Below are positions 16,861 to 46,782 of a DNA stretch of 64,000 nucleotides, one piece after another. Where the stretch lies: assembly GCA_948144175.1 (NCBI GenBank), contig CANXME010002275.1:4525001-4589000 (forward strand), read 5' to 3'. Below the pieces are notes generated by a model. That model was not told where the DNA came from and made no database searches. It saw only the letters and a list, made by a program, of their open reading frames with translations. Source of the DNA: Closterium sp. NIES-65 (Eukaryota > Streptophyta > Zygnematophyceae > Desmidiales > Closteriaceae). A program made the position numbers and the translations under genes. Numbering within the stretch: the first letter of the stretch is position 1; the number at the start of each line of letters is the position of its first letter.

Positions 16861-17374
16861 GTGATGGAGAATAGCATCACAAAAAACCCGCGTTTCCAAT
16901 CTGGGGGGGTTGGGAACACTTTCGAGGTTGGGTTGTTTGGTTTGCGCGAGGAAACCCTGTTTTCGTCGAAGCTCAGTCTGCTCTTGGTCGCGCGTCAAAA
17001 TTTGGTCACATTGAGTCTGACGCCCTGCACATCGAGCCGCGTCAGATTCTGACCGAGGGTTAGGCCTGGCAAATTCAGGCCAGGGATGCTCCCATTTTAG
17101 GCCTGCTTTGTTAATGTTTGACGAGGCAAATTCGGACCAATTTTGGTCCAATTACAGATTGTTTACAGTTGTGTAGATCATGCTTTGCTCTATGAGACTT
17201 GTTATTTTATTACATGTATATATACAAATTGTAAAACTGATTAACAGAAACCAAAGTAACTTGTGTTACATAACGTCAACAATCTATCCGACGTCTTGTT
17301 TAATCTTGTGTAACTTGTGTTATAAAACATATTTATTTTATAACATGCCTACGCAGATGCATGCTTTCACTACA
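16861..17374. other. Sequence 3' of the transposase gene, no gene seen
   Basis: AT-rich from about 17160 on, so it could hold the 3' untranslated region and the end of the DNA transposon. No clear terminal inverted repeat was found by eye. Confidence 0.35.
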
Positions 17375-20300
17375 CTATCTAAGTTGGTATTTGTTAAGCA
17401 AATAAGCGGTGTCGCTATGAAACGCCTTGATAACGTGGACCTCGCGATAAATCGCATCGACGTTGACCACAACATACTTGGAAAGGGTTGTCGTCCATGC
17501 AAGTCGAGTGCATCCCGTTTTCGCATCCTCGCCCGTTTTGGTCCAGTACCTCACGTACGCCAGCTCCTTTTTGCAACCCCTCTCCTTGGTGTGAAACAGG
17601 AGCAACAACTTCCCATACCATTCAACATCTCCCCCGTCTTGTGCTGTCCCCATGATGGCCACGTCTGAGAACCATGGCCTCGAGTACGAATGGGGGGCAG
17701 CCTTCACAAAGTGTGCAACGCGCGAAAAGTGCTCTCCTTGGGCTGAGAAAATCGCCATTGTTGTGTGCGCCTGCGACAATGCATGAAAACCATCGTTATG
17801 CTTTGGATAACACTCTTATGTCATTAGGGCCGCACCCAAGTTTAGCTAGAAAAAACTGTGGTATCTCCATACCACATCTCAGGGAAGATGGGAGATAGGG
17901 AGGGCAGGAGAAAGTGGTGGATGGGGTTAGGCCGAATGGGGAAGGGTTGGAAGGATGATGGGTATGGGAACGGAGAAGGGGTGCTCCAGCCAGTTTCCAA
18001 GTGGCTAGTGTAGGTGGGTCTCAACAAGGCCAGGGCCAGCCCAGAGGAGCACTCCTGAGGGTCCTTTGCAGGGGGTTGGCTGGAGTGAGGGTGAGGGGGA
18101 TGTAGTGAGTCATGGAGGGAAATTGTGAGGGGGGGAAGGGGGGAGGGGTATTACTTCTTATCTGAGTGGATGGGGAAAGGTGGATGGGTTTGGGAATGGA
18201 AAAGGGGTGCTCCAGCCAGGTTCCTAGGGGGTCGTGCAGGTGGGGACTCAACAGTCCCACTGCCGGCCTAGAGTTGCACCCCTGTGTGTCCCGGGAGGGC
18301 CTAGGCTGGAGTGAGGGAGAGAGGGATGAAGTGGGGCAGGGTGGGAAAGAGAGAAGGGGGCATTATTATGCCCCTTGCTGTTTCTGCAACTCAGATTGCA
18401 GAGTGTTGGGTGCAAGTTGTCTTGCAGAGGTGTTCCCATGCCTTGGAGCTGCCCCCAGGTGGCACATCTGAGGGGAACAAGGAAATAGGGAGAGAGGGCA
18501 GGAGAGAGGGGTGCATTAGAGAAGGGGGAATGGGGAAGGGGAAAGGTGAATGGGTTTGGGAATGGAAAATGGGTGCTCCAGCCAGGTTCCTAGGGGGTCG
18601 TGCAGGTGGGGACTCAACAGCCCCACTGCCGGCCTAGAGTTGCACCCCTGTGTGTCCCGGGAGGGCCTGGGCTGGAGTGAGGGAGAGAGGGATGAAGTGG
18701 GGCAGGGTGGGAAAGAGAGAAGGGGGCATTATTATGCCCCTTGCTGTTTATGCAACTCAGATTGCAGAGTGTTGGGTGCCAGTTGTCTTGCAGAGGTGTT
18801 CCCATGCCTTGGAGCTGCCCCCAGGTGGCACATCTGAGGGGAACAAGGAAATAGGGAGAGAGGGCATGAGAGAGGGGTGCATTAGAGAAGGGGGAATGGG
18901 GAAGGGGAAAGGTGGATGGGTTTGGGAATGGAAAAAGGGTGCTCCAGCCAGGTTCCTAGGGGGTCGTGCAGGTGGGGACTCAACAGCCCCACTGCCGGCC
19001 TAGAGTTGCACCCCTGTGTGTCCCGGGAGGGCCTGGGCTGGAGTGAGGGAGAGAGGGATGAAGTGGGGCAGGGTGGGAAAGAGAGAAGGGGGCATTATTA
19101 TGCCCCTTGCTGTTTCTGCAACTCAGATTGCAGAGTGTTGGGTGCAAGTTGTCTTGCAGAGGTGTTCCCATGCCTTGGAGCTGCCCCCAGGTGGCACATC
19201 TGAGGGGAACAAGGAAATAGGGAGAGAGGGCAGGAGAGAGGGGTGCATTAGAGAAGGGGGAATGGGGAAGGGGAAAGGTGAATGGGTTTGGGAATGGAAA
19301 AAGGGTGCTCCAGCCAGGTTCCTAGGGGGTCGTGCAGGTGGGGACTCAACAGCCCCACTGCCGGCCTAGAGTTGCACCCCTGTGTGTCCCGGGAGGGCCT
19401 GGGCTGGAGTGAGGGAGAGAGGGATGAAGTGGGGCAGGGTGGGAAAGAGAGAAGGGGGCATTATCATGCCCCTTGCTGTTTCTGCAACTCAGATTGCAGA
19501 GTGTTGGGTGCCAATGTCTTGCAGAGGTGTTCCCATGCCTTGGAGCTGCCCCCAGGTGGCACATCTGAGGGGAACAAGGAAATAGGGAGAGAGGGCAAGG
19601 TAGGGGGGTGCATGGGGGTAGGGTGAATGGGGAAGGGGGAAATCCGGTTGATTTGGGATGGTGGATTTGGTGGCTCCAGCCAAGTTCCTTGCAAATTTGG
19701 GTGAACCCTGCACTGGAGTGAGGGAAAGAGGGATGCGATGCAGTGAGGCATTGGAAGAAGAGGGAGGAGGTGGAGGTGGGGGGGTGGGGAGTTGCCATTG
19801 CCTTGGTGGTTAGGGCAACAAATGTCAACAAAGTTGAATTTGCAGTCACGAATGAGCATGGAAGGCAATTCTTACCCGAACCTTGGTGGGCGACAAGTTC
19901 ACCCGTGCAAGTGCCTGCTTGAACTTGGCATGTGCCTTGGGGTGCTGCTCGCTCCACTCTTTCACGAAATCGCTGGGGTGCTTAGTCGCATCCACAGGGT
20001 CCACGGGGAAAAAATAAGATTCCTTGGTCATGACGCGCACGCCTTTTTCAATTGCCTGCAGTGAAAAAGGGCTCACTCATTGCCTGAAAGTACGCTATGG
20101 CTGAAATTTGGCTCGGCCAACATGTGCTCGAATATACTTACCGTTGCCATGGCGGTCTCGTGTTTAGTGTCCGACTCTTCGTCTTCCCACATGCCTAGCC
20201 GTTTTTCATGGTGCTTCATGATTTTCACGTCCACATTTCTCTTATTCGAGCGACGGTAGATTTGCTTCAACAGTGTGCTATGCAAGTGCTCAAAAAAATT

Positions 20301-23300
20301 CGTGCTGTGCTCTTGCACGTAACCGGCTCGTCGAATGGCGGGAACAAAATGTGACATGAGGTGAGTTTTAATGAGGTTCCAGTCGGATGCTTGTTGGGGA
20401 AAGGCTTTCACCAACAGTTTCACCAGCCTGGAGTGTATGGGCAGGCACAAGGAAAGGTTGATGAATATGCGAGGCTACGTACATGCACAAGGCAAGCTCT
20501 CTTGGTTTCTGGTTAAGAGAAAACCAAGAATATGTGTTTAGGGTGGAGTGAGCATACCTTGCTGCCTTCCGCTTCAGCTCTTGTAAAGTGCTCTCCGTGT
20601 GGAGGTCTTTGTTGCACCAAGTATACCAGTCAATGTATGTACGAATCGCCTCCAGTTGTCTCGCATCTAGTATGTCGGCCACCAAAAAAATCAGAACCTA
20701 TGGTGTAGGTTTCATGGTGTATTGGCAATGGCAAGGATCATATGATTATATGAGCAAGTAAAATCATGGCAGAGGAGCATACCGCATAGTTCATGGGTCT
20801 GAAACATAGGTATGCAACAGCATTGACTGAGATATGCAGGGAAGAAGAATGGAGAGGGTTTACGTCACTTTGTACTGCATGATCATTTCACATGATGAGG
20901 TTTGAACGTATGCAATAACATATGCATATTCAACCATGCAACATCAGCCCTACCTGCATCACAGCCATTTAAGGTGCGTGCTACCTGCATCCCACACCTA
21001 CCAGCCATTTAAGGTGCGTCCAACCTGCATCACAGCCCTATGCTCAAATGCTGGGACATTCGCAGTGCTCGAAAAGTACTCCTTATCGGGAAATCGCATC
21101 GTGTTGATGCGTGTAGCTTCACGCAAGTTCTGCAGCCTCCTTGCAGGGGGAAAGTACTGGTGAGGAGTTTTGAAACCCTGATAGGATGACCATCAAGAAA
21201 GATACACACTCCTTACCGCAAATGACAGATACAGCTATTCAGGTTCGAAAAGAACAAAGATGAACCTACGTGTCGAGCTTCTTGAGGGACCTCGGTGACG
21301 CTTTACGGATGCACTTGACAATGTGGTCCAATATTCCGAGATCCGCCATGTGCATGATGTCTGGCAAGAGTGCTAGATATGGGTTCCCCCATGCATGGAC
21401 AGGGATGCCCCATTGCCACAATGCGCACTGCCATACAATGACGTGTAGTGTAGATCTTCACTGAGCAACATAACACAACGACAAAGGCCAACATGCACGT
21501 CCAAGATATATGCTCCCACCATACACAAGGATGAGAGCGAAAACCCAGCACACTAAGGGTTAGGACGACATACCCACGTTTTGAGGTCGATCGCTCTCTC
21601 TTTCTCAAGCATTCTTTATCTTGAACTACGTTGTGCACATTCTGACCTGAAAGTTGTAGGTTGAATATTGTGCCAGTGAAGTATCTTCAGCAGACGCCTC
21701 CATTTGAGTCACCACCCACTGTTGGTGCCCAAGACTCCGAACAGCGTGGTCCATGTTAACAGATGAGAGGCTGTCTTGTCACGGTACGCGTGAAAACGGA
21801 TGATTGCTTGTGTCAACAATGGCCAGCAACAGGAAAGACAAACACGGATTGAGTGCTTACCCGATCAACGTAACAGATGCTGCACGGCTTCGAGCAGCCC
21901 TGGCCAGAAAGGGTGCCTGACAATTTCCCCGATTCAGGGTAGTCAGCAGCCCACCCAAGAAGCATCGGGACCACCTTGCGTTCAACCCCGTGTGGATCTT
22001 TCAATAACACACCACTGCATACGGACGGGTAGCAGCATGGATGGTTGGATTGAAGGACTCGTGGCGGTACACTATCTAAACAGCATGTTCACACAAGTCA
22101 GTCGCTAGAGTGTCATCAATAACGTACCTCTCCTTCACTTGAAGCAAAGGCTCCATTAGTTTTGCCACGCAGACGTTGAATATTTCAGCCTTCAGTTCGG
22201 TGGGCATCCCTTTGGGGGGAATGGGAAGCACCGCTAGCAGTGCATGCCCCATCGGACCCCACCGTTTTAGGAGTGGTATGTTGCCCAGTGTCATCACTAC
22301 TGGATGGGCCATTTTGCGACCGTTACTGCTGAGGTGAGTAACATCGCTGTAGAATATGAGTGCTGCTATCACAACATCAAGGCCTACCATTGCCTGTGGA
22401 CAAATGGAAGTGTTGAAGCAACAAAAGGTGCTGTTGTTAAAAACTGCATGAGATTATTGACTGTTACGCATAACTGTGCGCAAGCTTCAATGACCTCGCA
22501 TATTCAAACCGTAAACGGCATGGTACATACCTGTGCATCGTGCCACCAGGTCCCAGTCTCGGCAGTGGTATAAGCACGCTGCCTAGTATTCGGGTCCACT
22601 TCCCGCTTTGGCTTGAGACGGAAGCCCTCAGCGTTTTCCTTAGCAGACATCATATCCCTCAAGACCTACAAACAGTTCATCATAAAACAGGGCACGAACA
22701 ACGACACATGGAGAGATTTTGAAACCTGCGAGGTGTCGCCACCATTGATAATCTGGAGGTGGGCTGGCCATAATGGGCACATGCCCCATGCTTGCATGTA
22801 TGGCTATAATGGGCTCATTACCCATGCTTGCACGTCTGGCCATAATGGGCTCATTACCCATGCTTGCATGTCTAGCCATAATAGGCTCATTACCCATGCT
22901 TGCATGTCTGGCCATAATGAGCTCATTAGCCATGCTTGCATAGGCTGTCCAGCTTAGTAATGAAGATCATGAGCATGTCGATACAGGCTGCGAGGCAATA
23001 CTAGGATTAGCAGCATGGCACAGCGGCTTGTAAACGACACAAGTGAACATTTATGGGACTCGCAACAAATGTGTGGCAGAGGGCAAATATAAAGTATCAT
23101 GGCAGAAAATCACTGAGTATTAGTTGCCTGGATGGAAAATGTATGAAGGGATTGAAGGTTGCATACATGTTCCATACAAATAGTATCAACTTACGTGAAG
23201 AGGATTTCGGTGCAGCATGACCTGATCAGGGTAGCCCTCAACCACAATTGTTGTGGCCTGGAAGCCACGACCGGTGCTTGCCAAGTACTCGAGGTGCAGC

Positions 23301-23917
23301 TTCTCGAGATCCCGAGAGTTTGAAACCTTGGCGTCGACAAGGTTCTTGGCGAATTCCGGATGCAATAGTAGCTGGAGCAGGCGGTTGGTATTCATCTTGG
23401 ATAACCCATCTCCTCCATTCACACCGTCCACGAGCTGCAGCAACTTTAGGAGTACTGGGGTGACTTTCACATTGGGTGATGGAGGGTCTGCAGTCCCTGA
23501 GCCGCTTGCAGGAGGCTGTGGAGGAGGTGACGGCAACGGGCTCTCAGATGCGGGGCAAGAGGAGGTGGATGAGGAGGGAACATTTTCTCGGGCGGTGCTC
23601 GAGGGCTCGCCCCCAGATACAGTTGGCGGCACTTCAGCATCGCGAGTAGGGTCTGGATTGTCCGGAGGCGTGTGTGGGGAGTTGTTGTCACTGGCAATAG
23701 GCGCTCTACGAGGACGAACGCGCCTGTAGGTAGGGGCAGGGATGGCGTAGACAACCCCAACGCCCCCGTGCTCGGAGGTTGTAGGAGACAATCGCCTTGA
23801 TCGCCTACCTCGCCATGGCGCGCATGGAGAGTTCCCTCCCAAATGCCTACCCAGCACTTGGGGATTCGGGCAACACAAACCGCAAACGCTACAGAAGCAA
23901 GTTTGAGCACAATCCAT
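17375..23917 (-). CDS. Plavaka-like (CACTA/EnSpm-related) DNA-transposon transposase, 11 exons
   Basis: Predicted transposase of about 890 residues. Exons on the minus strand, 5' to 3': 23917-23195, 22665-22531, 22393-22128, 22014-21861, about 21774-21647, 21427-21270, 21139-21025, 20697-20558, 20427-20142, 20055-19876, 17770-17375. All have GT donors (many GTAAGT) and AG acceptors, and phases agree except at the exon 4/5 junction, which is uncertain. Exon 1 has a C2HC finger (CSVC, x12, H, x6, C) then a Pro/Ser-rich region. Exon 2 carries GTWWHDAQ. Exon 3 has FYSDVTHL and HPVVMTLGNI. Exon 4 ends CSICYVDR. Exon 6 has LLPDIMHMADLG. Exon 9 has MSHFVPAIRRAG and YRRSNKRN. Exon 11 is the C-terminal domain with ELAYVRYW and TGCTRLAW. 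From memory these match the order of conserved blocks in fungal Plavaka transposases. The Asp in YSDVTH, the Asp in LPDIMH and a Glu in FFEHLHS are candidate RNase-H-fold catalytic residues. No frame break was seen, so it may be intact. The start Met is the first in the finger exon; an upstream exon cannot be excluded. Confidence 0.8.
17960..19800 (+). repeat. 366-bp tandem repeat array inside the last transposase intron
   Basis: Nearly identical units begin near 18166, 18532, 18898 and 19264, with diverged partial units on each side (about 17960-18165 and 19620-19800). Each holds GGTGCTCCAGCCAGGTTCC and CAACTCAGATTGCAGAGTGT. The spacing is a multiple of three and each unit keeps a 95-residue frame on the plus strand (opposite to the gene). 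The array fills most of the 2.1-kb intron between exons 10 and 11. No functional product is suggested; intronic satellite amplification is the simplest reading. Confidence 0.92.
22768..22945 (+). repeat. 36-bp minisatellite in intron 1 of the transposase gene
   Basis: Five imperfect units of the form GGCCATAATGGGCTCATTACCC...TGCATGTCT, differing at a few sites each. It lies wholly within the 529-bp intron between exons 1 and 2. Confidence 0.85.
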
Positions 23918-25147: not shown

Positions 25148-25247
25148 GGGAATGTATTTGAATAAGGGAATGTACCCCGTAGAGTACATGGCTAGCTAGG
25201 TCGATTCATATTCCCCTGTACTCTTATTTATATCGTTGTATTTGCAT
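25148..25247 (-). repeat. Direct repeat, probable LTR of the outer copia element (left)
   Basis: Starts GGGAATGTATTTGAATAAGG and ends TTGTATTTGCAT. It is repeated in the same orientation at 33663-33762 with roughly ten differences, so older than the nested copies. Confidence 0.7.
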
Positions 25248-26861
25248 TTGCCGATGGTTGAGGTCGGCGGGCGGTATTGTACCATGCACCCCCATACGCG
25301 CAGCATGGAGGTCCCAGTCCATTTGACGTGCGGAGACAGATTATCGGTGATGGCGGTGGTCAAGAGTAGGTTGTGCACCTGTACTGCGAGGTGCATCGCG
25401 TAGGTCCAGTAGATCGGCGGCAATTTTGCCTGCTTCATCAGCGTGCGCACCTTCGCCATTAGCGTGCGGTTCGTCCGCTCACCTACGCCCTGCAGCTGGT
25501 GCGCGTAGGGGAGAGAAATATGGTGCTCGATCCCTTTTTGCGTGAGGTAGGTTTGCATCTGGTTGCTCCTGAATTCTGCCGCACCGTCAGATTGCCAGAT
25601 TTTCAACTTTTTTCTAGACTGTCGCTCTGCGTGCGCCAGCCAAAGGCGAAACACCTCGTAGGCTCTGTCCGGTGACTCCACGTCCACGACCCACACGTAG
25701 CGCGTTCCAACGTCGATGAAGGTGAGTGTGTACATTTCGTCCTCGGTTCCGTAGTGCCCCTCGTTCAGGAAATCGCTGTACGCCTTGTGTAGCTTCGGGT
25801 AGCGGTTCGTTCCAGGTTCGAGCAGCGGGAACGGTTGGTGGCTCAGCGCAGCTTCGGGGCAGACGGTGCAGTTGCGCGGATGTGTCGCGCCTCTCACTTC
25901 GGAGCCATCAAGGCGCAGGAGTGCGCCAGGAGCGAAGACGTTGAGAAAACTAGAACAAGAATGAATGAACTATGAAAGAGTTGGGTACAAGTACTAACCC
26001 TAATTGAGTTGTACCCCTTATGGGCTACCCCACTACAGCCTAAACAAATGTATAAGCTATGATGTTCTGACACACCCCCATAGGCAAAGTGGGCGAGAAC
26101 AAGGGGTCACAAGACCAGTCAAGCAAAGCAAATCAAGCTCAGGGTGGATCACGAAGTCACCACACATTCCGAGCACAAGTTCAAGGCCACAAGGCCAGTT
26201 CACATGCAGGAGTACATATATATATAAAAGGCTAGACAAACAAGAGCAGGTGTATATATATATGTAACAGTACAAACAAGGTCAAGAGGTGAGCAAGTGA
26301 GGCAAGGCAGGCACAAGACCTAGCTGAGTACAGAACCGCTGATGATCACAAGGCGCAAGCGCCTTGGTGAAGATATCAGCAGTGTTGGCCTCAGAGGCCA
26401 CGTACGCAAGGCGCAGCTGACCACGAGCAAGAAAGTAGCGGAGAGCAATATGCTTTGTTCTGTGCTCCAGTCGCTGCTCCCGACACAAGGCCAACATGGC
26501 CTTGTTGTCTACGTACAGCACTGGAGGAGAACGAGGCGGCTCTCCGAGGTCAGTCAGCAGGTAGGTGAGCCAGCGAAGCTCTTAAGCAGCCATGGCTCCT
26601 ACGTAGATCTCAGCCTCACAACTGGAGCCGAGAACAGAAGACGAGCACGTAGCCCGCCACGAAACAGAGCCGGAACCAAGGCTGAAGGTGTAGCCCTGTG
26701 ACGACCGCTGCGTAGCCAGGTCGTCAGCCCAAGAAGCGTCTGCGTGCCCAGTGAGGACCACTGGACTCTGCCCTCCAAGCACAAGCCCCATGCCCAACGT
26801 ACTGCACAAGTAGCGCAACACCCTCTTCGCTGCAGCCATGTGCTCTGGTCGGTGTCTCCCA

Positions 26862-26998
26862 TGTGAAAGAAGTGAACAGGAAAAGTGGATGAACTAGCGG
26901 TGAAATGAGTATAAGTAGGAAACCCTAGAATTGTGTACCCCCTATAGGCTAACCCACTGTAGCCTAAACAACTACAACAACATATATAATGTTTAACA
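26862..26998 (-). repeat. 3' LTR of copia element 26862-31828
   Basis: 137 bp, starts TGTGAAAGAAG and ends TTTAACA. It has the block CCTAAACAACTACAACAAC, as in the LTRs of the 35.2-42.5 kb element. Confidence 0.88.
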
Positions 26999-29900
26999 CA
27001 CCCCCATAGGCGAAGTGGGGGAGAACTAGGGGTCACAAGACCAGTCAAGCAAAGCAAAGCAAGCTCAGGGTGGATCACAAAGTCACCACACAGTCCGAGC
27101 ACAAGAGCAGGGCCAGAGGCCAGTTCACATGCAGGAGTACAGACATATATATAAAAACTAGACAAGCAAGAGCAGGTATATATATATGTCACAGTACAAG
27201 TGAAGTCAAGAGGAGAGCAAGTGAGGCAAGACAGGCACAAGACCCAGCTGAGTGCAAAAGCGCTGATGGTCACAAGGCGCGAGTGCCTTGGTGAACACAT
27301 CAGCAGTGTTGGCCTCAGAGGCCACGTACGCAAGTCGCAACTGACCACGCTGCTGCAGCTCACGAGCAAGGAAGTAGCGGAGAGCAATGTGCTTCATTCT
27401 GTGCTCCAAGCGCTGCTCTCGACACAAGGCCAGCATGGCCTTGTTGTCTACGTACAGCACTGGAGGAGAACGAGGCGGCTCTCCAAGGTCAGTCAGCAGG
27501 TAGGTGAGCCAGCGAAGCTCCTGTGCAGCCATGGCCCCGGCGTAGATCTCAGCCTCACAACTGGAGCCGAGAACCGAAGACGAGCGAGTAGACCGCCACG
27601 AGACAGAGCCGGAACCAAGGCTGAAGGTGTAACCCTGTGACGACCGCTGCGTAGCCTGGTCGTCAGCCCAAGAAGCGTCCGCGTGGCCGGTAAGGACCAC
27701 TGGACTCCGCCCTCCAAGCACTAGCCCCATGCCCGACGTACTGCACAGGTAGCGCAATACCCTCTTCGCTGCAGCCAAGTGCTTTGGTCTGTGTCTCCCA
27801 GGAGCAACATAGCGTGCAAGAATGCTCAGAGGGTATGCAAGGTCAGGTCGTGTGCAGGTCATCAGGTACATGAGGCAGCCAACAAGCTCTGCATACGGAC
27901 CACTCGACTCTACGGACTCATCCGAAGGCAGAGCTGAGAGTGAGTGGCGAGTAGGTAGAGGAGTGGCCTGAGGCGAGGAGTACGTGAAGCCGAAGCGCTG
28001 AAGGACCTGCGGCACCATGTGTGACTGAGTCAAGGTAATGGTGCGGCGTGCTCTGTCCCGAGTGATCTGCAAGCCAAGGTAGCTGCGCAGTTCACCCAGG
28101 TCTGTGCACGTGTGTCTCTTCAGCAGCTCGGACTTCACGTAGGCGAGTCCAGCAGTGTCCCCTGTGGCAAAGACCAAGTCGTCGACGTACACGAGGATGT
28201 AGAACGGCGGCAGGGACGAGACGCAGGCTCACGACGCTCAGCAAGACCTCCAGTAGGACCAGTGTAAGGAGAGGGAGCAGGCAGTGGAGAGGAAGGCTCC
28301 AGCAGGGACTGCGACTGGACAGGCGGTGGACCCTCTACCGGAGGAGAAAGACCAAGAACCTGCTGCAGGAGCGGAGCGAAGAACGGCCGAGGCCGCGCGG
28401 CAGCTCCAGACGCAGCAGGGACAGCACGAGCACCCTCAGCGACAGCACCAGCGCCACCCACACCTCCAGCAGCAGGACCAACAGCAGTAGGCTCAGCACC
28501 AACGCCCTCAGCAGCTCCAGCTCCAGGAGGACCCGCAGGTCCAGCAGCTCCGGGACCGGCAGCACCCGCACCCTCGACTGTCGAAGAAGCTCCAGCTCCA
28601 GCAGCACCTCCAGACTCAGCAGCACGCCTCCAGCGGCGAGCGAACCACTCGCGCAGCTCCTGTGGAGAGAGGGGCTCCCGGCGAGACGCAGCAGCAGGAG
28701 AAACACCAGGCTCAGCAGCTCCAGACGCAGCACCCCCAGGCTCAGCAGCTCCCGACCCAGCACCCCCAGACCCACCACCTCCAGGCACAGCACCCCCCGG
28801 CTCAGCACCCCCAGGCTCCGCACCCTCCGCAGTAGCACCCTCAGGCCCAACACCCCCAGTAGTAGCACCCCTAGGCCTAGCACCCCCGCGCACAGCACCC
28901 CCAGAGTCAGCACCCCCAGGCTCAGCACCCGCAGCAGCACCAGAGTCACCAGTAACCTCGACCGGGTCAACGGCGTCTACCTGGGACACACCTGAGGGGG
29001 CAGGAACCTGAGGGGAGAGGGGGTCTACCGGGGGGGGAACCGGCACAAGGAAGTCCGGGGGAGGGGGGAGGGAAGGAGTGCGGTAGGGGAAGAGACGGTA
29101 GAAGGGGACTAACTCGTCGAACGTGACGTCCTGGGAGGACACAACACGACGAGAGGAGGGGTGGTAAAACTGCCACCCTGGGGCGTCAGTGGGGAAGCCA
29201 AGGAAGACACAGGGAGCAGCACGAGGGGACAGCTTGTCCGCAGACAAGTCGCGGACAAACGCCCGAGATCCCCAGACACGGAACACAGACACATCGCCAA
29301 CCTTCCCCGTCCACAGCAAGGCTGGGGACATCGCAGGCCGAGAGACCCGGGGGTGAAGGTTGAGCTGATGCGCCGCGTACCTCACCGCAAACGGCCACAG
29401 AAAATGGGGGGCAGCCGCATGCATCATGGACGTACGAGTGACATCCATGACCATGCCAATGCGGCGCTCAGCAATCCCATTTTGCTGTGGTGAGTCCGGA
29501 AGCGTGAAGGTCTGGCGGATCCCCCGTGCACGACAGTAGTCCCGCAGAAGGCGAGAAGAGAACTCTCCGCCTCTGTCCGAGTGCAGACGCAGAACAGGAA
29601 AGTCCGAGCCGAAGCTCTTCCTGAGCTGGAGACGAGCCTCGCGGATCCAGTCGATCAGCACCTCAGTGACCGCACCCTTGCTGCGCAAGGGGAGGACTGT
29701 GGTGTAACGCGAGTAGTCGTCAACCACCAACACGAAGTAGCGCTCGTAACCCTGCCCACGGACGGGGGCTGGGCCCCACACATCCATGTGAAGCGTCTGC
29801 AGGGGAGCCTCTGTCGGGGGGAAGTGGGAGGAGTGAGGAGTAGCCCGGAGGCGACCCTCGACACAGGGGACACAGGAAGGTCCTGGCTCGGAGGGGAGAG

Positions 29901-31229
29901 GAGGGAGAGACTGGAGAAGACCAGAGACAAGGACACGGGAAGCCATGCTCCGAAGAAGGGGCAAGGAGGGGTGGCCAAGACGGTGGTGCCACAGGAGAGT
30001 CTCGTGGGACAGGAGGCGACAAGAACAGGGGGCAGACTCAGGACCTGACCGGGACGCAGCAGCAAGCACCTGACCTGACGCCGCCACCTGACCAGATGCA
30101 GGGACAGGAGGAGACTCAACGGTCAGGGTGTAGAGACTCGACCCCGGCCGACGCGAGAACGTGGCCAGGTGTCGGCCTGTGCGTGCCTCCGTGCAGTGGG
30201 TCACCCGCAGACTCGCAGGAGTGAACTGGTGAACCCCCACATCCTGCAGGTCCGCTCCACTCACCAAGTTCGTAGAGAACGAGGGAAGGTACAGACCCGA
30301 CAGGGTGCCCGAAGGGGCAGCCGGACACGGGAGGACAGTGGAGAAGTGAGACAGGACAGGACCCCCAGAGGGGTCAGCAAGGGAGACCGCAACCGGCCGG
30401 CCGAGCGGCGTAAGGGTAGTGCGGTCTCGAAAGAAGGAGCGAGAAGCCCCGGAGTCAAGTGTGAAAGTGAGGGAGGACGAGGACGACGCAGTACCTGAGA
30501 GCGCAGTCTCACCAGTACCTGAGAGCACAAACGCACTGGCACCTAGAGCAGCAGCCTCACAAGCACCTAGCGCAGCAGTACCAATGCCCGGGTCGGGCTG
30601 GAAACAACGGTAACCCTCATTCTCCTCACTATAATCCACAACATACATAGCAGCAAGGATAGCATCAAAATCAAGATCAAAGATCGCTACACCAGCCCTT
30701 AGAAGCTCATCCCAGCGAGGGATCTCACTAGCCCCAGGGAACTGCTGACGCCAAGCATCCGTCAGGCGGCCAAAGCAGCGCTGGGTGGCGTGGGCACCCC
30801 CACACTGCTCACCCGCGCGGTCGCCGGAACGAAGAACGTAGGTGCAGGGACCAGTACCCCCACCCCTCTGACGCCCAGCGTACCACTCACGAAGCTGCTG
30901 AGGCGGAGGGATGTCCCGCGAGCGCTGCTGCTGCTGCCGCTGCGAGCGCTGGCCACCACCACCGCCGCTACGCTGCTGGGCACCACCTCGACCAGCTCCA
31001 CCTCCTCCACCACCACCGCCTCCTCCGCTGCCGCCTCCACCGCCTCCACCTCCGCCGCCTCCACCTCCGCCGCTGCCTCCACCACCACCGCTGGCACCAC
31101 CACCACCGTCTCCGCCGCTGCTGCCACCACCACCACCACCCCCGCCACTAGTCCCGCCGCCACCCCCACTCCCTCTGCCGCCACCGCCGCCACCGCCACC
31201 GCCCCCTCCAGCTCCACCCGCGGCGGGTG

Positions 31230-31620
31230 CAGCGGCGGGCCGGCGGATGCAGCGGCGGGGCCGTCAAGTGAGGCGGCGGGCCGTAGGGTGCAGCGGCGGG
31301 CCGTAGGGTGCAGCGGCGGAGCCGGCAGTGGGGCCGCGTCAGGGGAGGCGGCGGGGCCGCGTCAAGCAGGCGGCGGGGCCGCGACGAAGCGGGCGGTGGG
31401 GCCGCGTCAGAGCCGGCGGAGCGGGGCCGCGTCAGTGGAGGCGGCGGGGCCGCGTCAATTAGGCGGCGGGGCCGCGACGAAGTTGGCGGCAGGGCCGCGT
31501 AAGAGCCGACGACGGGGCCGCGCCAAGCAGGCGGCGGGACCGCGATCAGGAGGGGTGGCGGGGCCGCGTCTGAGGGACAGCGGGGCCGCGAGGGAAATGG
31601 CGACCCGAGGGGTCGCTAAA
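31230..31620 (-). repeat. GC-rich leader minisatellite of copia element 26862-31828
   Basis: Imperfect repeats of GGCGGCGGGGCCGCGTCA type lying between the 5' LTR and the gag region. The same position in other copies holds different repeat units. Confidence 0.8.
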
Positions 31621-31694
31621 AAAAGGCGCGCCTCGGGGCGCGCTTCGGTGGGCCCTAAAAAAAACGGTCCTAAGGAAGGACCCGCTCTATACCA

Positions 31695-31828
31695 TGTGAA
31701 AGAAGTGAACAGGAAAAGTGGATGAACTAGCAGTGAAATGAGTACAAGTAGGAAACCCTAGAATTGTGTACCCCCTATAGGCTAACCCACTGTAGCCTAC
31801 ACAAGCATAACATATATAATGTTTGACA
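31695..31828 (-). repeat. 5' LTR of copia element 26862-31828
   Basis: 134 bp, starts TGTGAAAGAAG and ends TTTGACA. It has the block CCTACACAAGCATAAC, as in the LTRs of the 51.9-59.3 kb element. Confidence 0.88.
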
Positions 31829-33662
31829 TCCCAGGAGCAACATAGCGTGTGAGAATGCTAAGAGGGTATGCAAGGTCAGGTCGTGTGCAGGTCATCAGGT
31901 ACATGAGGCAGCCAACAAGCTCTGGGTACGGGCCACTCGACTCTACAGACTCATCCGAAGGCAGAGCTGAGAGCGAGTGGCGAGTAGGCAGAGGAGTGGC
32001 CTGAGGCAAGGAGGAGGTTCTGCTGCTACCCCCTCTGCCTCTTCTTCTTCCTGCGCGGTGGTCAACATCAGCGCCAAGAACTCTCTGTCACGAATCTCAG
32101 AGAGCGGAATGTTGGTCTCAAGGATCGTGCCAAGTACAAATGCCGGTTTGCGTGGCTCAGGGGCAGGTCCGTAGACAGTGCGACGTGGGGTTGACGGCTC
32201 GTTGCCCTAGATGCTGGTGTCCGATGGATCGCGGCGCGCGGGGTTGTCAGGAGGAGGTGGTGCGAGTGGAACGTGATGCGGGGGACGGCCAAGAGGAACG
32301 ACTGCAGGTGTTGCCTCAGTTTCGTCCTCTCCCCCCTTTCGTTCTTCGCAGAAAGTACCCCAGCCGCTATTGTCGGCGCTAGTTGCGGTGCCCCATCCGC
32401 CGCTCGCGTTGGCCCAGGTGCCGCCGGTGTTTCCCCAGCCGCCAGTGTCACTTGTTCCCCATCCTCCAGCGCTTCCCCACCCCCCTTCATTGGAGGCACT
32501 TTTTTCAGCCTCGGCTCCCTAGGTGGCGCAAGCGAAGGTTCCACGTGCTTCTGCGAGGCTTAGCTGGCGAAGCTCCTCAGCTTCGCGGCGCACCAATTCT
32601 TCCTCTTCCTCCGCGGTGAGTATCTTCGATGAGTCGCGTCGATGAGAGTAGATGGCCAAAAACCTCTCGTAGGTGTAGGGTCGCGGCTCGCCATGGGCAT
32701 CAAAGGTGCCGACGCCGGTTCCGCGCAGCATGCCTTGAAGGTGCTGTGAGGGGGGACCGATGAGGGGATGCTCTGGCGTGCCGAAGATGCCGTGGGTGGT
32801 AACTTCAAGCTCGAGCTGCGTCATCCCTTCCTCTGGGGGCGCGTGGCGCTCTGCTTCAGCGATGGCGGCGAGTCCGCGGCCGGCAATCGCGCTTGTTGAT
32901 GTCGTCGGGGTATGAGAATCCCTGCAGATGCCATCTGGGTCGGGGTTGTGTAACGCCGTTTCGCGTGGGTGGGGATGATGCGGCACCCACGGTCTGCCGT
33001 CAGGGTGCTTCCAATCCCTGCGGTGGATTTGCTCGAAGCGCAGTGGCACGAGATCAATCAAATCGTGCGAGTCGCCGCTGCAGTCGGGAATGTCGAAATC
33101 TAGGACATACACTCCATTTACGGAGTGCGCTCGTCCAATCTGCCTGCGGGGAAATATGCTCAATTCGTAGTGCAGCAGGATGTCTCATGTCTCGCGATCC
33201 GTGCTAAGGTCGACGCCGCAGTCCATGAGCTGTGCGGCGGACAGGAGGTTGAAGCGCAGGTTCTGGACGATCAGCACATCGTTAAGCATGATGTGCGTGC
33301 GGCTTCTACGTGCTTTGAGCACGACGATGCCTTGTGCGCTTGCGCGCAGGCGCATGCTGTTCGCCACAGTGACGTAAGTTACTGTAGGGGTGGGGACGGC
33401 GTTGGATATGTAACGCTCGGAGCCCACCATATGCTGGCCGCAGCAGCTGTCCAGGTACCAGGTGTTGTAGCGCTTGTTGTCGTCACGTGCGAGCAGCCCT
33501 AATCGCGGTGTGACGATGTGCGGAGTGTCGAACTTCAGAAATTGCTCGCGCGAGAGCCAATCAGGTGGCGCCACCCGCATGTCTGGTATGTGCGGGGGAC
33601 TTTCAAGCTGCGGGACTGGGAGGTTCAAGTCCTGGTCATCGTCGTCGTTGTAGTCGCGGTGC

Positions 33663-33762
33663 GGGAATGTATTTGAATAAGGGAATGTACCCCTTAGAGT
33701 CCATGGCTAGCTAGGTTGTTTCATTTCCCCTGTACTCATATTCATATTTGTTGTATTTGCAT
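33663..33762 (-). repeat. Direct repeat, probable LTR of the outer copia element (right)
   Basis: Partner of 25148-25247, lying directly upstream of the protease-like region on the minus strand. Confidence 0.7.
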
Positions 33763-35238: not shown

Positions 35239-35364
35239 TGTTGAACAAGAATGAATGAACTAAGAGTGAAATGAGTACAAGTATCAAAACCTAGGAATGT
35301 GTACCCCCTATAGGCTAACCCACTGTAGCCTAAACAACTACAACAACATATATAATGTTTGACA
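35239..35364 (-). repeat. 3' LTR of copia element 35239-42537
   Basis: 126 bp, starts TGTTGAACAAG and ends TTTGACA. The inner side has the CACCCCCATAGG purine tract (complement GGGGGTG). Confidence 0.93.
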
Positions 35365-38300
35365 CACCCCCATAGGCGAAGTGGGGGAGAACTAGGGGTC
35401 ACAAGACCAGTCAAGTAAAGCAAAACAAAGCAAGCTCAGGGTGGATCACAACGTCACCACACAATCCAAGCACAAGTGCAAGGCCACAAGGCCAGTTCAC
35501 ATGCAAGAGTACAGATATATATATAAGACTAAACAAGCAAGAGCAGTGATATATATATGTAACAGTACAAAGAGGGTCAAGAGGAGAGCAAGTGAGGCAA
35601 GACAAACACAAGACCCAGCTGGGTACAGCGGCGCTGATGATCACAAGGCGGAAGTGCCTTGGTGAAGACCTCAGCAGTGTTGGCCTCAGAGGCCACGTAC
35701 GCAAGTCGCAACTGTCCACGCTGCTGTAGCTCACGAGCAAGGAAGTAGCGGAGAGCAATGTGCTTTGTTTTGTGCTCCAGTCTCTGCTCCCGACACAAGG
35801 CCAGCATAGCCTTGTTGTCGACGTACAGGACTGGAGGAGAACGAGGCGGCTCTCCAAGGTCGGTCAGCAGGTAGGTGAGCCAGCGAAGCTCTTGAGCAGC
35901 CATGGCCCCCGCGTAGATCTCAGCCTCACAACTGGAGCCAAGAACAGAACACGAGCGAGTAGCCCGCCACGAAACAGAGCCGGAACCAAGGCTGAAGGTG
36001 TAACCCTGTGACGACCGCTGCGTAGTCTGGTCGTCAGCCCAAGAAGCGTCTGCATGTCCAGTGAGGACCACTGGACTCCGCCCTCCAAGCACTAGCCCCA
36101 TGCCCGACGTACTGCACAAGTAGCGCAACACCCTCTTCGCTGCAGCCATGTGCTCTGGTCGGTGTCTCCCAGGAGCAACATAGCGTGCAAGAATGCTAAG
36201 AGGGTATGCAAGGTCAGGTCATGTGCAGGTCATCAGGTACATGAGACAGCCAACAAGCTCTGGGTACGTGCCACTTGACTCTACGGACTCATCCGAAGGC
36301 AGAGCTGAGAGTGAGTGGCGAGTAGGCAGAGGAGTGGCCTGAGGCGAGGAGTACGTGAAGCCAAAGCGCTGAAGGACCTGCTGCACCATGTGTGACTGAG
36401 TCAGGGTAATGGTGCGGCGTGCTCTGTCCCGGGTGATCTGCAAGCCAAGGTAGCTGCGCAGTTCACCCAGGTCAGTGCACGTGTGTCTCTTCTGCAGCTC
36501 GGACTTCACGTAGGCGAGTCCAGTAGTGTCAACTATGGCGAAGACCAAGTCATCGACGTACACGAGGATGTAGAACGGCGGTAGAGAGGTGTCGGTGCGC
36601 AGAAACAGCGACGGGTCGGCAGTAGACGGAGCGAACCCAAGAGCCGCAAGCGTAGTCCTCAGTGTGTCGTGCCACTCATGTGGCGCCTGGCGGAGACCGT
36701 AGACTGGACGCCAGAGACTCCACTGGGTACCAGGAGGGAAAGACCCAGTGAAGCCAGGTGGGCGGCGCAGCCAGATCTCCTCGTGCAGGCTGCCCTGCAG
36801 GAAAGCTGTGCTAAAGTCGAGAGAGTGCAGCTCGTAGTCCCGGTGAGCAGCAACGTGCAGCAGTACCCGAAGAGTGGTCATCTTCGGGGTGGGGGAGAAG
36901 GTCTGAAAGTAGTCAACTCCCTGTCGCTGACTGAAGCCACGAGCCACGTAACCCGCCTTGAAGACAGGCGGGGAACCCGGCGGCCGCTTCACCCTGAAGA
37001 TCCACATGCCACTGACGATGTTCGCCCCAGGAGGGGGGACAGCGTCAACGTAGGTGCCTGTGGACTTCCAGGAAGCCATCTCTGCATCCATAGCTACCTG
37101 CCACTGAGAGGAGTAGGGACCCTCTATCGCCTCCGCGTAAGAGCGCGAAGTCGGGATGTCAAGTGCATCCGGGTCTCCCTCAGGGGTAAGCAGTACGGAC
37201 ACGAGATGAGGTGAAGCAGCTGCCAGACACTGGAAATCCTCCTGCCTGTCCTCAAGGACGTCCGTGCCAAGGGCACACTCACCCCCGACGGACGGAGGAC
37301 ATACAGACTCAGACTCAGCAACAAGACTAGCAGCGTAGTCTAAGCGACAGCGAGCAGCAAAGTCGACGAGCTCAGTAACGAGAGCAGACGCAGCAGTAGA
37401 CTCGAAAGAAGGGTCAATAACAACAGTAGCAAGGAGACGCGTGACAGTAGGACTGGCAGCACGAAGAGAGTCCGACTCAGGGTCGGCGAGAGCAGGGAGA
37501 GAGGACGCAGGAGGAGAAGGCAAAGGGGCACGCAGAGGAGCAGTAGACGGACGTAGAGACATCCGGTGCGTGCCAGGGGTAGGAGGAGGACGCTGGCGCG
37601 AACTACGAGCACTAGCGCTAGCAGGACGGACAGGCGACGCCGGACGAGACGAAGACTCACGACGCTCAGTAAGACCGCCAGTAGGACCAGTGTAAGGAGA
37701 AGGAGCAGGTAGTGGGGAGGCCGGCTGCAACTGTAACTGTGACGGGACAGGCTGTGAACACGCTAAGGGAGGAGGACCAGGAGGAGGCGAGAGACCAAGA
37801 ACCTGCTGAAGGAGCGGAACGAAGTACGGCTGAGGGCGCGCGGCGACTCCAGGCACAGCAGGGACAGCACCTGTAACCCCAGCGGCAGTACCAGAACCAG
37901 CAGCAGCTCCAACGCCCAGGTCCTCAGTACTAGCCTCAGCACCAACGCCCGAGTCCTCAGCACCAGCAGTGGCTCCAACACCAGGGTCCACAGCACCTGC
38001 AGCAGCTCCAACGCCCGGGTCCTCAGCACCAGCAGGGACTCCGACACCAGGGTCCACAGCACCAGCCGCAGCTCCAACGCCAGGGTCCGCAGCACCAGCC
38101 GCAGCCCCAACGCCCGGGTCCTCAGCACCAGCAGCACCTCCAACCCTCGGGTCCGCAGCACTAGCAGCAGCTCCAACGCCAGGGTCCGCAGCACCACCAG
38201 CAGCTCCAACGCCCGGGTCCGTAGCACCAGGGGCAGCCGGGTCCGTGAGACGAGGCGCACCACTCCGAAGTGTGCAACGGCGCTCGTACCACTCACGAAT

Positions 38301-41300
38301 CCGCTCGCGAGAGGGGAGCTCCCGACTAGGAGGAGAAGTACCAGCCCCAGTCCCTGTAGTGCGCCTGGTCCCAGAGGTAACACTCCGGAGGCTGCAGTAC
38401 TGTAAGTACCACTCACGCAAGTGCTCCGAGGAGAGGTCGCGTCCAGGTGTAGCACCCTCAGGCCCAGCACCGCAAGGCTCAGCACCCCCAGTCACCGCAC
38501 CCCCAGGCTCAGCACCCCCAGGCTCAGTACCCCCGGTGTCCGCACCCCCAGGCTCAGCACCCCCAGAGTCCGCACCCCCAGGCTCAGCACCCCCAGAGTC
38601 AGCACCCCCAGGCTCAGCACCCCCAGTCTCCGCACCCCCAGGCACAGCACCCCCAGCAGTTTGAGAGTCGACAGCAACCTCAACAGGCTCGACCGGGTCT
38701 ACCTGAGACACACCTGAGGGAGCGGCACCCTGAGTGGGGAGGGGGTCTACGACAGCAGCACCTGGCGCGAGGAAGAGAGGCGGGGGTGGGAGCGGGGCAG
38801 TGCGGTAGGGAAAGAGGTGGTAGTAGGGGACAGACTCGTCAAAAGTGACGTCCTGAGAGGGCAAGACCCGGCGCGAGGTGGCGTGGTAAAACTGCCAACC
38901 AGGCGCGTCGGAACAAAGCCGAGGAAGACGCAGGGAACAGCACGAGAGGAGAGCTTGTCCGCAGACGAATCGCGGACAAAAGCTCGAGATCCCCAGACCC
39001 GGAAACGTGACGCATCGCCAACCTCCCCCGTCCACAGCAGTGTGGGCGAGGTCTCCGGCAAGGAGACACGGGGCCAGAGGTTGAGCTGATGCGCAGCGTA
39101 CCGGACCGCAAACGGCCACAGAAAGTGGGGGGCAGCCGCATGGATCAAGGAGGTACGAGCGACCTCCATGACCAGGCCAATGCGGCGCTCCGCAACCCCA
39201 TTCTGCTGTGGAGAGGCCGGAAGCGTGAACGACTGCTCAATGCCGTGCTCAGCACAGTAGGCTGCCAAGAGGTCGGAGGAGAACTCACCACCTCTGTCAG
39301 AGTGCAAGCGCAGGACAGGAAAGTCGGAGCGGAAACGCTCGCTGAGCTGGAGACGAGCTCTGCGGATCCAAGGGATCAAAACATTAGGGACCTCACCCTT
39401 GGCTCGCAAGGGGAAGACCGTGGTGTAGCGCGAGTAGTCGTCAACAACGATCAGGAAGTACCTCTCCTGACCCTGACCACGGACGCGGGCTGGGCCCCAC
39501 ACTTCCATGTGGAGCGTCTGCAAAGGAGCAGTCGTCGGGGGAAACGAGGAGTGAGGAGCGGCGCGCTGCCACCCCTCGACACAGGGAAGACAGGGAGGAG
39601 CAGGCGAGGGTGGGAGGGGAGGGAGGACCCTGGGAAGACCAGAGACAAGGTACCGGGAGTGCATGGCATGAAGGCGCTGCACAGACGGGTGGCCCAGTCG
39701 GTGGTGCCAGAGGACAGTCTTGTGCGCTAGAGAGCGACACGAGCAGGGGGCGGACAGCTGACCTGACGCGAACGCAGACGCAGACGCAGCGACCTGAGGG
39801 GGGGTAGTAGTCAGTGTGTACAGATCCGGCCCCGGCTACCGGGTGAAGGTAGCCAAGTGGCGGCCTGTACGGGCACACGTGCAGTGTGTGACACGCTCGT
39901 AGGCAGGGGTGAACTGGTGAACACCCGCGTCCTGTAGTGCACAACCTGCCACCAAGTTCGTAAAGAACGAGGGGAGGTGGAGACCTGACAGTGTGCCCGA
40001 CGGGACCGCAGGACAGGGAAGGACAGTGGAGGAGGTCGCAAGGACCGGACCCCCAGAGGGGTCAGCGAGGGAGACAGCAACTGGCCGAGCAAGGGGCTCA
40101 AGGGCAGTGCGGTCACGAAAGAAACAGCGAGAGGCACCTGAATCCAGTGTGAAGGTGTGCAGTGCTGCAATCGACACAGTACTAGGGGGGCAGACGTACA
40201 CGCACCTAGAGCAGCAGCCTCACCAGCACCTGGGGTAGCGGACACGCGAGTACCTGGAGCGGCAGACGCACTAGTCCTAATGCTCGGGTCGGGCGGGACA
40301 CTCAGGTACTCAGCACCCTCTCCACTAGTAGACATCACATACATGGCAGTGACATCACATACATGGCAGTGATGTCTGGTACTAGCATCAAAGTCTAGAG
40401 CATAAATATCAATCCCCTTCTTCAGGAGATCAACCCAGCGGGGCAGCTCAGTGGCCTGAGGGAACTGAACACGCCAAGCGTCGTTCAGACGAGCGAAGCA
40501 ACGCTGTGTGGCGTGCGGTCCCCCACACGGCTGGCCACTGCGGTCACCAGTGCGAATGACGTACGTGCAGCTAAGGCCACCCCCCCCCCCCCCCCCCCCG
40601 TGCTGAGAGTACCACTCACGGACTTCTGGGGGCGACGGAGTGTGCTGCTGGCCCTGGCCACCGCCAGTGCCTCCACGACCACCACCGCCGCTACCACCTC
40701 CTCGACCACCCCAACCCCGGCCGCTGCCTCGTCCACCGCCACCCCCACCACCTCCTCCGCCCCGGCCACCTCCCCCGCCGCTGCCGCCACCCCCCCCACT
40801 GCTGCCACCTCCCCCACCCGCGCCACCCCCCCCGCCACCACCACCTCCCCCACCACCGCCACTCCCGCTTTCACCACCACCGCCCTTGCCCCCCTTGCCC
40901 TTGCCGCTGCTGCGCCCACTCAAAGCAGACGCAGTCCCGACCTTCTCAGCACCAAGGAGGTCGACAGCAGCAGCAGAGGCGACAGAGGGAAGAAGGGGGG
41001 AGGGAGAACACCCCTCAAAGAACGGGGTACAGGGGTCACCGCGAGAGGCACCTACAGCGACTATGCTAGCCTCAGCTGCAAGCAGTTCCTTCTCGAGGAG
41101 GGCAATGGTGAGCTCGGTGGGGCAGCGAGCTAGGAAGTGGTCCCTGACTGAGCGCAGAGTGTCAGGGAGGTGCGTGACTAGGTGGTAGAGATTGAGCCAG
41201 AGCGGGGGTGGGTTCTTGGCAAGGAACTCATCAGGCATAGCGGCGCGGAAGCGAGCCTCACTAGTGCGGAGGTGGGTAATGAGATCAGCGACAGTGTGGA

Positions 41301-41689
41301 AGGAAGCTAGGTCGGGGAACAGGTAGGGAAGAGAGAGACGGCCTAGAGCGGCAGAGGCCGACGAGGAGTAGCGGGCAACGACAGCAGTGTACAGTGCCTG
41401 TGCAGTCTTGTGCTGCCCAAAGTGCTTGCGCTCATCTATCGGCAGAGAGTTGCGAATAGCGAAGCGAGTATGGGCGTCACGAGTCTGCCACTGTGAGCGA
41501 GCAGTGCTGTCAGTAGTAGCAGCAGGAGCAGTAGCGTGGCCTAAGGCATGATCGTACAGTGAGATGTCTTCCTTGGCAGTGAGATGTAGGAAGAGGTGTA
41601 GGTCATCAAGCCAGGTGTCGAACTTCACTGGGCGGCCCTCAGTATCGAAGGCTAGGACAGGAGGGCTAGCCATGGTAGCAGCAGTAGGA

Positions 41690-42330
41690 AAAGCAGTAGG
41701 AGCAGTAGGGTAGGTAGGGCGGCGCGGCTCGGTACAGGTAGGGCGGCGCGGCTCGGTATAGGTAGGGCGGCGCGGCTCGGGTCGGGCGGCGCGGCTCGGT
41801 TGGGGCGGCTCGGTTCGGGCGGCTCGGGTCGGTTAGGGCTAGCGGCTCGGGTCGGGCGGCTCGGTTCCGTTAGGGCTGGGCGGCTTGGGTCGGCTCGGTT
41901 CGGGCTGCTCGGTCTGGGTGGGGCCGTTCGTGGCCGCTAAGGGCGAGCGCGGGGAGCGGGTGGGGCCGTGAGGGACGAGCGCGGGGCCGACGTGGGTGCT
42001 AAGGGCGAGCGCGGGGCCGACGTGGGTGCTAAGGGCGAGCGCGGGGCCTATCGGGGCCGTGAGGGACGAGCGCGGGGCCGATCGGGGCGGTAAGGGACGA
42101 GCGCGGTGCCGACGTGGGCCTCTAAGGGCGAGCGTGGGGCCTATCGGGGCCGTGAGGGACGAGCGCGGGGCCGAACGGGGCCGGTAAGGACGAGCGCAGG
42201 GCCGACGCGGGCCTCTAGGGGTAAGCGCGGGGCCGATTCGGGGCCTCTAAAAGCGAGCGCGGGTCCGACCGAGGCCTCTAGGTGCGAGAGCGCGGGGCCG
42301 ACGGGGCCTCTAGGGGCGTGAAAGCCGAGG
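41690..42330 (-). repeat. GC-rich leader minisatellites of copia element 35239-42537
   Basis: Two arrays lie between the gag start and the 5' LTR: about 41730-41900 of GGGCGGCGCGGCTCGGT-type units, and 41935-42310 of units like TAAGGGCGAGCGCGGGGCC. A short GTAG run ends it at about 42345-42361. Confidence 0.85.
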
Positions 42331-42411
42331 CGCCCTAGGGCGTAGGTAGGTAGGTAGGTAGTGGTGGGCCCTAAAAAAAAATCGGTCCTAGGAAGGACCT
42401 GCTCTATACCA

Positions 42412-42537
42412 TGTTGAACAAGAATGAATGAACTAAGAGTGAAATGAGTACAAGTATCAAAACCTAGGAATGTGTACCCCCTATAGGCTAACCCATTGTA
42501 GCCTAAACAACTACAACAACATATATAATGTTTGACA
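42412..42537 (-). repeat. 5' LTR of copia element 35239-42537
   Basis: 126 bp, practically identical to 35239-35364 and followed by the TGCAA target duplication. Confidence 0.93.
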
Positions 42538-46200: not shown

Positions 46201-46782
46201 CCATCAGTTGGCGTGGATCTTGTATGCTGTGAGTATACAAAGTTACCCATAATTAGTTCAGGGTTATATGGTTGTGCAAAGTAGGATTCACATAATCCAA
46301 CATCCTTACTAATGGAAGCTTGTTAGCCAATAACCCCAACATCATATTTTTCACCTTGATCACATGCTTGCTTGAACCCTTTTTTTTGCCCCTTTTATCG
46401 TCAGGTGGAGTGGCCGTTGCTGCACAATGCGCCAGATGGGAAGCTTCCCACAAAGTGGGATACGAATCGCACAAATTATGAGGTCATGTGCGCTCGTGTC
46501 AAGAGGTTGGTCGAGCATGCTGTGCTCGACCTCGGAGTTGCGTATGACAGGAGCATGCACCCCTTCGTTTTTCCGAATGCGGTGTACATTGACGCTTCGG
46601 ATTCCGAGTCGGTGGTGAAAGAGTACCTTGTAAGTATGCATGGATGATGTTGATATGAAATAATATGTTTGTTTGATATGTTTTTGTACTAATTCATGTT
46701 ATCTTTCCTATTTGTATAAACCCTCCAGCGGAGGCAGGCAGCTTCGAGGACTGCGCAACAAGTTCGCGCAACCCCTCCCTGA
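43284..46782 (+). CDS. Unrecognised eight-exon gene: basic/acidic N-terminus plus conserved-looking C-terminal region
   Basis: Exons: 43284-43379, 43564-44056, 44196-44402, 44753-45114, 45490-45841, 46083-46228, 46405-46629, 46729-46782; about 645 codons. Every junction has GT/AG ends and matching phase (0, 1, 1, 0, 1, 0, 0), with strong GTGAGT or GTAAGT donors at several. The protein starts MAVKQKNAHDVLSRGEEH and has a basic patch KKLKKSSSRK. It then has an Asp/Glu-rich tract in exon 2 (DEECDEECDEECDEE) and a Lys-rich tract in exon 3 (KKTKKEKDRKWKGK). From exon 5 a normal-composition region of about 240 residues follows (RLMYTNAADQIQFYPSD, DALKTLIVLFEHLDP, AWHFLNGVPFSTQIFAVCV, KFKIHQLAWILYA). 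The composition suggests a nuclear protein. I do not recognise the C-terminal region; it could be a lineage-specific host family or the non-transposase gene of a DNA transposon. One in-frame TAA (45109) sits two codons before the exon 4 donor. A weaker in-phase GT at 45100 would exclude it. Confidence 0.65.

Follow-up and report, generated by a model that had tools for sequence, protein, structure and literature searches.

A probable decaying copy of a two-gene PlavakaB-type DNA transposon in a streptophyte genome

The 64,000-nucleotide stretch of Closterium sp. NIES-65 DNA analysed here (contig CANXME010002275.1, positions 4,525,001 to 4,589,000; "the window", numbered from its first letter) very probably holds, at 16875-48661, a decaying copy of a two-gene cut-and-paste DNA transposon of the PlavakaB type. 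The element has inverted ends and lies between 2-bp target-site duplications. It carries an intron-rich transposase gene of the Plavaka family and, in divergent orientation, a conserved second gene, and copies with different flanks are dispersed through the genome. What is new, within the literature examined, is the conserved pairing of two genes, Plavaka elements having already been reported from a green alga (PMC12633428).

The mobile unit spans 31.8 kb, of which the transposase coordinates are only one part. Its boundaries and the repeat beside its right end are as follows:

16873..16874: left target-site duplication, AG, repeated at 48662-48663
16875..16888, plus strand: left terminal inverted repeat, CATCACAAAAAACC; a sharp boundary in five other copies, whose flanks differ
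46934..48057: 31-bp tandem repeat, 36 copies, about 600 bp inside the right end
48648..48661, minus strand: right terminal inverted repeat, GGTAGTTTGTGATG; the matches of copies C1052 and C1872 stop exactly here
48662..48663: right target-site duplication, AG

The termini read CATCACAAA..TTTGTGATG, that is, CATCA..TGATG. Within the window TTTGTGATG occurs only twice, at the two ends and inverted, and the mean in shuffled windows was 0.28. Across the 874-Mb assembly a right-end pattern has six occurrences (the window, C440, C332, C1052, C1872 and C1954) and a stricter left-end pattern also six times (the window, C440, C1052, C1512, C1789 and C1872); the reversed pattern gave no occurrence in either case. 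A 2-bp target duplication is present in four of five independent insertions: AG in the window, GG in C1052, TC in C1872 and AC in C1954, where as many as 4 bp could be counted as matching. Copy C440 is about 99% identical to the window far past the element ends, with an identical right flank, so it represents an allele or a duplicate rather than an insertion of its own. Of the copies measured from one end to the other the shortest, C332, is 17.8 kb long; the window copy owes its greater length to nested copia-type insertions and would be about 18 kb without the later ones. In C885, a relative at 73% identity, the single end seen is similar in type (GTTTGTGATG). Across the genome there are at least 228 matches to exons 3-4 of the window transposase, and at least 133 matches to the Plavaka model at at least 123 loci. 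An earlier sequence-only reading of this DNA had proposed a search for further copies and for terminal inverted repeats with a 2-3 bp duplication, and both were found, the outer ends at 16875 and 48661 and the duplication 2 bp long. The 31-bp repeats are possible subterminal binding sites.

The transposase gene lies on the minus strand, from an ATG at 23917 to a stop ending at 17375, in 11 predicted exons:

23195..23917, minus strand: exon 1, start codon and a C-x2-C..H..C finger at residues 9-32
22531..22665, minus strand: exon 2, GTWWHDAQ
22128..22393, minus strand: exon 3, YSDVTHL with the putative first D
21861..22014, minus strand: exon 4, WAADYPES with the putative second D, and CSIC, the C(2)C motif
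21647..21775, minus strand: exon 5, its acceptor CAA in the window copy and C440
21270..21427, minus strand: exon 6, carrying LLPDIMHMADLG
21025..21139, minus strand: exon 7
20558..20697, minus strand: exon 8
20142..20427, minus strand: exon 9, HLMSH, the H(3)H motif, and FFEHLH with the putative catalytic E
19876..20055, minus strand: exon 10
17771..19875, minus strand: intron 10, 2105 bp
17375..17770, minus strand: exon 11, ELAYVRYW, TGCTRLAW and the stop

The spliced product has 893 amino acids and a single stop, at its end. It matches PF18759, the Pfam Plavaka family, with an E-value of 1.1e-34 and 120.6 bits (cut-off 26.3) over profile positions 20-323 of 325; this is its sole Pfam match up to E 0.1, and NCBIfam gave no match. 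CSIC, HLMSH and FFEHLH lie at residues 419, 629 and 651, and the two putative catalytic aspartates at 303 and 399. The translation also contains MSHFVPAIRRAG and every one of the ordered motifs quoted in the sequence-only reading. That reading had described an intron-rich Plavaka-type transposase of eleven exons, with GT/AG borders and nearly all phases in agreement. Its family assignment agrees with the profile match and with termini and a 2-bp duplication that fit PlavakaB, and its gene model with the ten introns found, nine of which run GT..AG with phase in agreement; the exception is intron 4.

The exon borders are supported by two relatives in the same genome. L001, from another subfamily, lacks introns 1-7 and aligns unspliced, as one open frame, over window residues 86-609, that is, across the positions of all seven. 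In C885 the splice sites are intact where aligned, as they are in most of the copies at 95-98% identity, intron 4 excepted. Relatives and copies also settled the details of the model. A tandem-repeat open frame at 22640-22966 was discarded as an extra exon, since the exon 1 donor is kept in relatives and the exon 2 acceptor in subfamily copies. For exon 4, a start at 22071, with the frame open upstream, was passed over for 22014, where unspliced relatives align directly and the phase agrees; comparison of copies moved the start of exon 5 from 21770 to 21775; and a micro-exon near 20790 proved unneeded, MQVL joining as in relatives. Intron 10 is mostly filled by a tandem repeat with 366-bp spacing (about 18168-19689), which is also found in other copies, apparently in differing repeat numbers.

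Substitutions between the window and C885 number 131, 86 and 309 at the first, second and third codon positions, with 232 synonymous and 173 non-synonymous codons. The corresponding numbers for C1862, over a smaller coverage, are 69, 47 and 159. Both sets of counts lend the exon borders further support. The C885 comparison indicates that the transposase is under purifying selection between subfamilies.

Intron content differs sharply between subfamilies within this one genome, the Plavaka subfamilies L001-L008 having long, intron-poor frames. The alignment of L005 breaks at the positions of introns 5 and 8, which for that reason look older than the others, and the alignment of L006 restarts at the position of intron 10. 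Many-copy DNA matches of the exon-intron region fall in exons 8 and 9 and none in introns, which speaks against introners, although this is not proof, as 40 of 89 candidates were scored and very common words skipped. Exon number also varies among CACTA families (PMC4158355).

A second gene, missed in the sequence-only reading, lies on the plus strand at about 45490-46647, within the element ends and head-to-head with the transposase. Its recognised parts are:

44827..45107, plus strand: possible 5' exon (MANQAGPSG...), border unsure, the first 44 codons matched in subfamily copies
45490..45841, plus strand: conserved exon, 117 codons, ending in phase 1
46083..46228, plus strand: next exon, phase in agreement
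46405..46647, plus strand: last recognised exon, running to TGA unless spliced after 46629

Just upstream, at 43546-44410, open frames that are strongly acidic and then strongly basic are possible further 5' exons. A search of the genome with the second gene gave at least 159 exon matches at 35-99% identity. To assess pairing, the 93 second-gene loci among the matches listed were compared with two sets of listed transposase loci: 142 counted with one match each, matches to later exons being dropped, and 123 obtained from 133 matches after dropping 10 second pieces. Among these listed matches, 64 of the 93 second-gene loci have a transposase within 40 kb (7.4 to 25.6 kb away, median 10.8), against a chance expectation of about 2.4%, and all 64 pairs are divergent. 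Conversely, among the 33 transposase copies with at least 62% identity, 32 share their contig with a second gene that lies no more than 60 kb away, and the lone exception is the truncated C1698. The uniform orientation of the pairs and the near-complete presence beside close copies indicate that the second gene is a standing part of these elements.

Several observations weigh against the reading of this stretch as a two-gene PlavakaB-type transposon. C332 has no 2-bp duplication (CC versus TC), and 3 of 100 shuffled windows contained TTTGTGATG two or more times. The catalytic roles of the D, D and E residues are putative, being assigned from motifs. The pieces of the second gene in the window match no Pfam family, with the joined core asked up to E 10, and a single-sequence fold of its main exon reached a predicted local distance difference test score (pLDDT) of 52.8, too poor for structural use. 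Finally, 29 of the 93 second-gene loci have no transposase within 40 kb among the matches listed; C1872, where the two genes are about 58 kb apart, is one of them.

The last of these points, the missing domain and the copia-type relics that do occur inside the element would all suit a second gene that plays no functional part, whether as a passenger or as what is left of some other nested element. We consider this unlikely. The pairing of the second gene with transposases extends down to 35-40% identity and is divergent in all 64 pairs found, and a passenger would hardly persist across such sequence divergence. Searches for relatives of the second protein gave a single sub-cut-off Pfam match for a relative's piece (Fra10Ac1, E 0.038), no solved structure at E up to 1 and nothing among viral contigs, where a Plavaka protein from the genome also found no relative.

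If the stretch is a two-gene PlavakaB-type transposon, as we prefer, the transposase would cut at the CATCACAAA ends with the aspartates of SDVTH and DYPES and the glutamate of FEHLH, and would join the unit to a target staggered by 2 bp; its N-terminal C2HC finger is predicted to bind DNA. We infer that the second protein acts in transposition, as a partner or a regulator, and that it would most likely bind the end regions or regulate expression, as TnpA does in CACTA elements.

Sequence features favour PlavakaB among the related kinds of element. Plavaka transposases carry C(2)C and H(3-4)H motifs; PlavakaB elements have termini 5'-CATCA..TGATG-3' and a duplication of 2 or 3 bp, PlavakaA termini are 5'-TGT..ACA-3', Zisupton makes an 8-bp duplication, and CACTA/EnSpm elements make a 3-bp duplication and have CAC..GTG ends (PMC12730594). 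The window transposase has the D, D, C(2)C, H(3)H and E motifs of the Plavaka definition given there, the catalytic roles being putative, and the element has the ends and the duplication of PlavakaB, the duplication being absent from copy C332. Its CATCA..TGATG termini are not those of PlavakaA. The sequence-only reading had proposed a profile comparison with Plavaka, KDZ (Kyakuja, Dileera, Zisupton) and CACTA transposases; in Pfam only Plavaka matched, and with a 2-bp duplication the element does not fit KDZ. A Pfam scan of open frames between the two termini, which included some but not all of the short ones, gave no TET/JBP dioxygenase. It is improbable, more so than a passenger second gene, that the element is a CACTA/EnSpm element proper. 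Plavaka and EnSpm transposases are related and most of their clade has CA..TG ends (PMC12730594), but no CACTA model matched, the duplication is 2 bp and not the 3 bp of EnSpm, and the termini are CATCA..TGATG.

The window copy is damaged, contrary to the description of the gene as "apparently unbroken" in the sequence-only reading. The acceptor of intron 4, before 21775, reads CAA|GAC in the window and C440, whereas all five other copies that reach the site (C332, C1954, C1872, C1052 and C1698) have CAG|GAC, in phase. This loss explains why only nearly all phases agreed. Use of the next AG, a single base downstream, shifts the frame, and an in-frame AG farther down (CAACAG, inside exon 5) would drop part of that exon. 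With the acceptor lost, the window copy probably makes no full-length transposase, and it would be mobile only if another copy supplied the enzyme.

Decay extends to the other copies. Lesions were found in all eight loci compared (C332, C1954, C1872, C1052, C1698, C1512, C1789 and C440), and one in the window; for the copies other than the window the survey counted lesions other than stops. In C332 one base is inserted in exon 1, the donor of exon 6 is lost and exon 9 carries a deletion; C1954 has a 1-base deletion in exon 9, and the acceptor of its exon 10 is lost and the end of that exon missing; in C1872 a deletion reaches into exon 2; C1052 carries a deletion in exon 1, has lost the acceptors of exons 6 and 7 and has one extra base in exon 10; and large parts of C1698, C1512 and C1789 are missing. 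Exon and intron divergence from the window is 0.040 and 0.041 for C332, 0.032 and 0.031 for C1954, 0.021 and 0.016 for C1872, 0.029 and 0.024 for C1052, and 0.036 and 0.037 for C1698. Exons therefore diverge as introns do or slightly more, and the copies at 95-98% identity show no third-position excess, which points to decay after insertion without coding constraint. A host gene domesticated from a Plavaka transposase is a very improbable alternative, for although the gene is long, coding and under purifying selection between subfamilies, it sits between inverted ends with a 2-bp duplication, its copies are dispersed, and the close ones have diverged in just this unconstrained manner.

Retroelements have inserted into the unit more than once:

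25199..25939, minus strand: older copia-type integrase remnant (rve, E 4.1e-10), in a stretch common to other element copies
25941..32008: later long terminal repeat (LTR) insertion, with LTR at 25941-26861 and 31829-32008, split by a second insertion at 26862-31828
33188..33706, minus strand: older copia-type Pol remnant (Pol_BBD, E 8.5e-15)
35239..42537, minus strand: copia-type retrotransposon (RVT_2, E 6.7e-47) with a 5-bp duplication, TGCAA, at 35234-35238 and 42538-42542

The rve and Pol_BBD remnants sit in stretches common to several copies and were probably carried along by transposition. The LTR at 25941 is present at the same site in C1052, which has different flanks and a different duplication, so transposition of the unit followed the gain of this LTR; the insertion is not clean, as about 134 bp of C332 and C1954 are missing from the window there. 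C1052 has no copia-type retrotransposon at the 35239..42537 site. Outside the Plavaka unit, 52347-58169 holds a copia-type element with one frame of 1941 codons (RVT_2, rve, SH3_retrovirus and gag_pre-integrs). A scan for RNA genes gave no tRNA in the window, nor any Rfam match that reached the gathering score.

Plastid rbcL places the host among the streptophytes. Over a stretch of 309 residues, 291 are identical to the best chain in the Protein Data Bank (PDB), 9chz, and chains at 678-682 bits, presumably those of pea, tobacco and spinach, score above 1gk8 (659 bits), which we take to be Chlamydomonas. The "probable green-alga genome" of the sequence-only reading therefore stands as green lineage at the level of Streptophyta, the group that unites the land plants with the algae related to them. 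There are 20 full-score rbcL matches (on contigs C75, C97, C162, C824, C1848, C2174 and others), several of them on one contig in either orientation, which suggests concatenated plastid DNA in the assembly.

The Plavaka elements in the literature examined are mostly from fungi, and the sequence-only reading had considered a fungal-type family in a plant-lineage genome notable. That claim is weakened by Plavaka elements already in print from a green alga (PMC12633428) and from an animal relative (PMC11244446). At least 123 loci with Plavaka-model matches, intron-rich beside intron-poor subfamilies, show the family to be established in the green lineage. Neither a conserved second gene of this kind nor Plavaka in a streptophyte is described in the Plavaka literature examined, whose coverage is limited. 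A conserved second gene in divergent orientation would turn Plavaka, at least here, from a single-gene transposon that now and then carries cargo into a system of two components, and its protein would be a concrete candidate for end binding or for release from silencing. More broadly, streptophyte PlavakaB elements may form a two-gene clade whose second protein is a new partner family for transposition or anti-silencing, co-evolved with the transposase across subfamilies and possibly a counterpart of TnpA or of fungal TET/JBP; we regard this wider proposal as equally likely to hold or to fail.

Among known systems, the CACTA elements of land plants (En/Spm, with TnpA and TnpD) are likewise large and combine a DDE transposase with a second protein; they make a 3-bp duplication and have CACTA ends. 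Unlike in CACTA elements, the two genes here are head-to-head and the second protein belongs to no Pfam family. The green alga Auxenochlorella is a trebouxiophyte, not a streptophyte. Its EnSpm-Plavaka elements (PMC12633428) are another case of Plavaka in the green lineage. The Plavaka giant repeats of Amoebidium likewise lie outside the fungi and have additional genes close by; many of these encode tyrosine recombinases in tandem clusters (PMC11244446), whereas none was recognised in the window frames scanned. In the account of fungal PlavakaB examined, the only partner gene named is TET/JBP (PMC12730594), and the second gene described here matches neither TET/JBP nor any other Pfam family. 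The window element differs further from the PlavakaB elements of Agaricomycotina in its streptophyte host, its ten introns, its length of about 18 kb and its divergent second gene, and shares with them the transposase family, the C(2)C and H(3-4)H motifs, the termini and the 2-bp duplication (PMC12730594).

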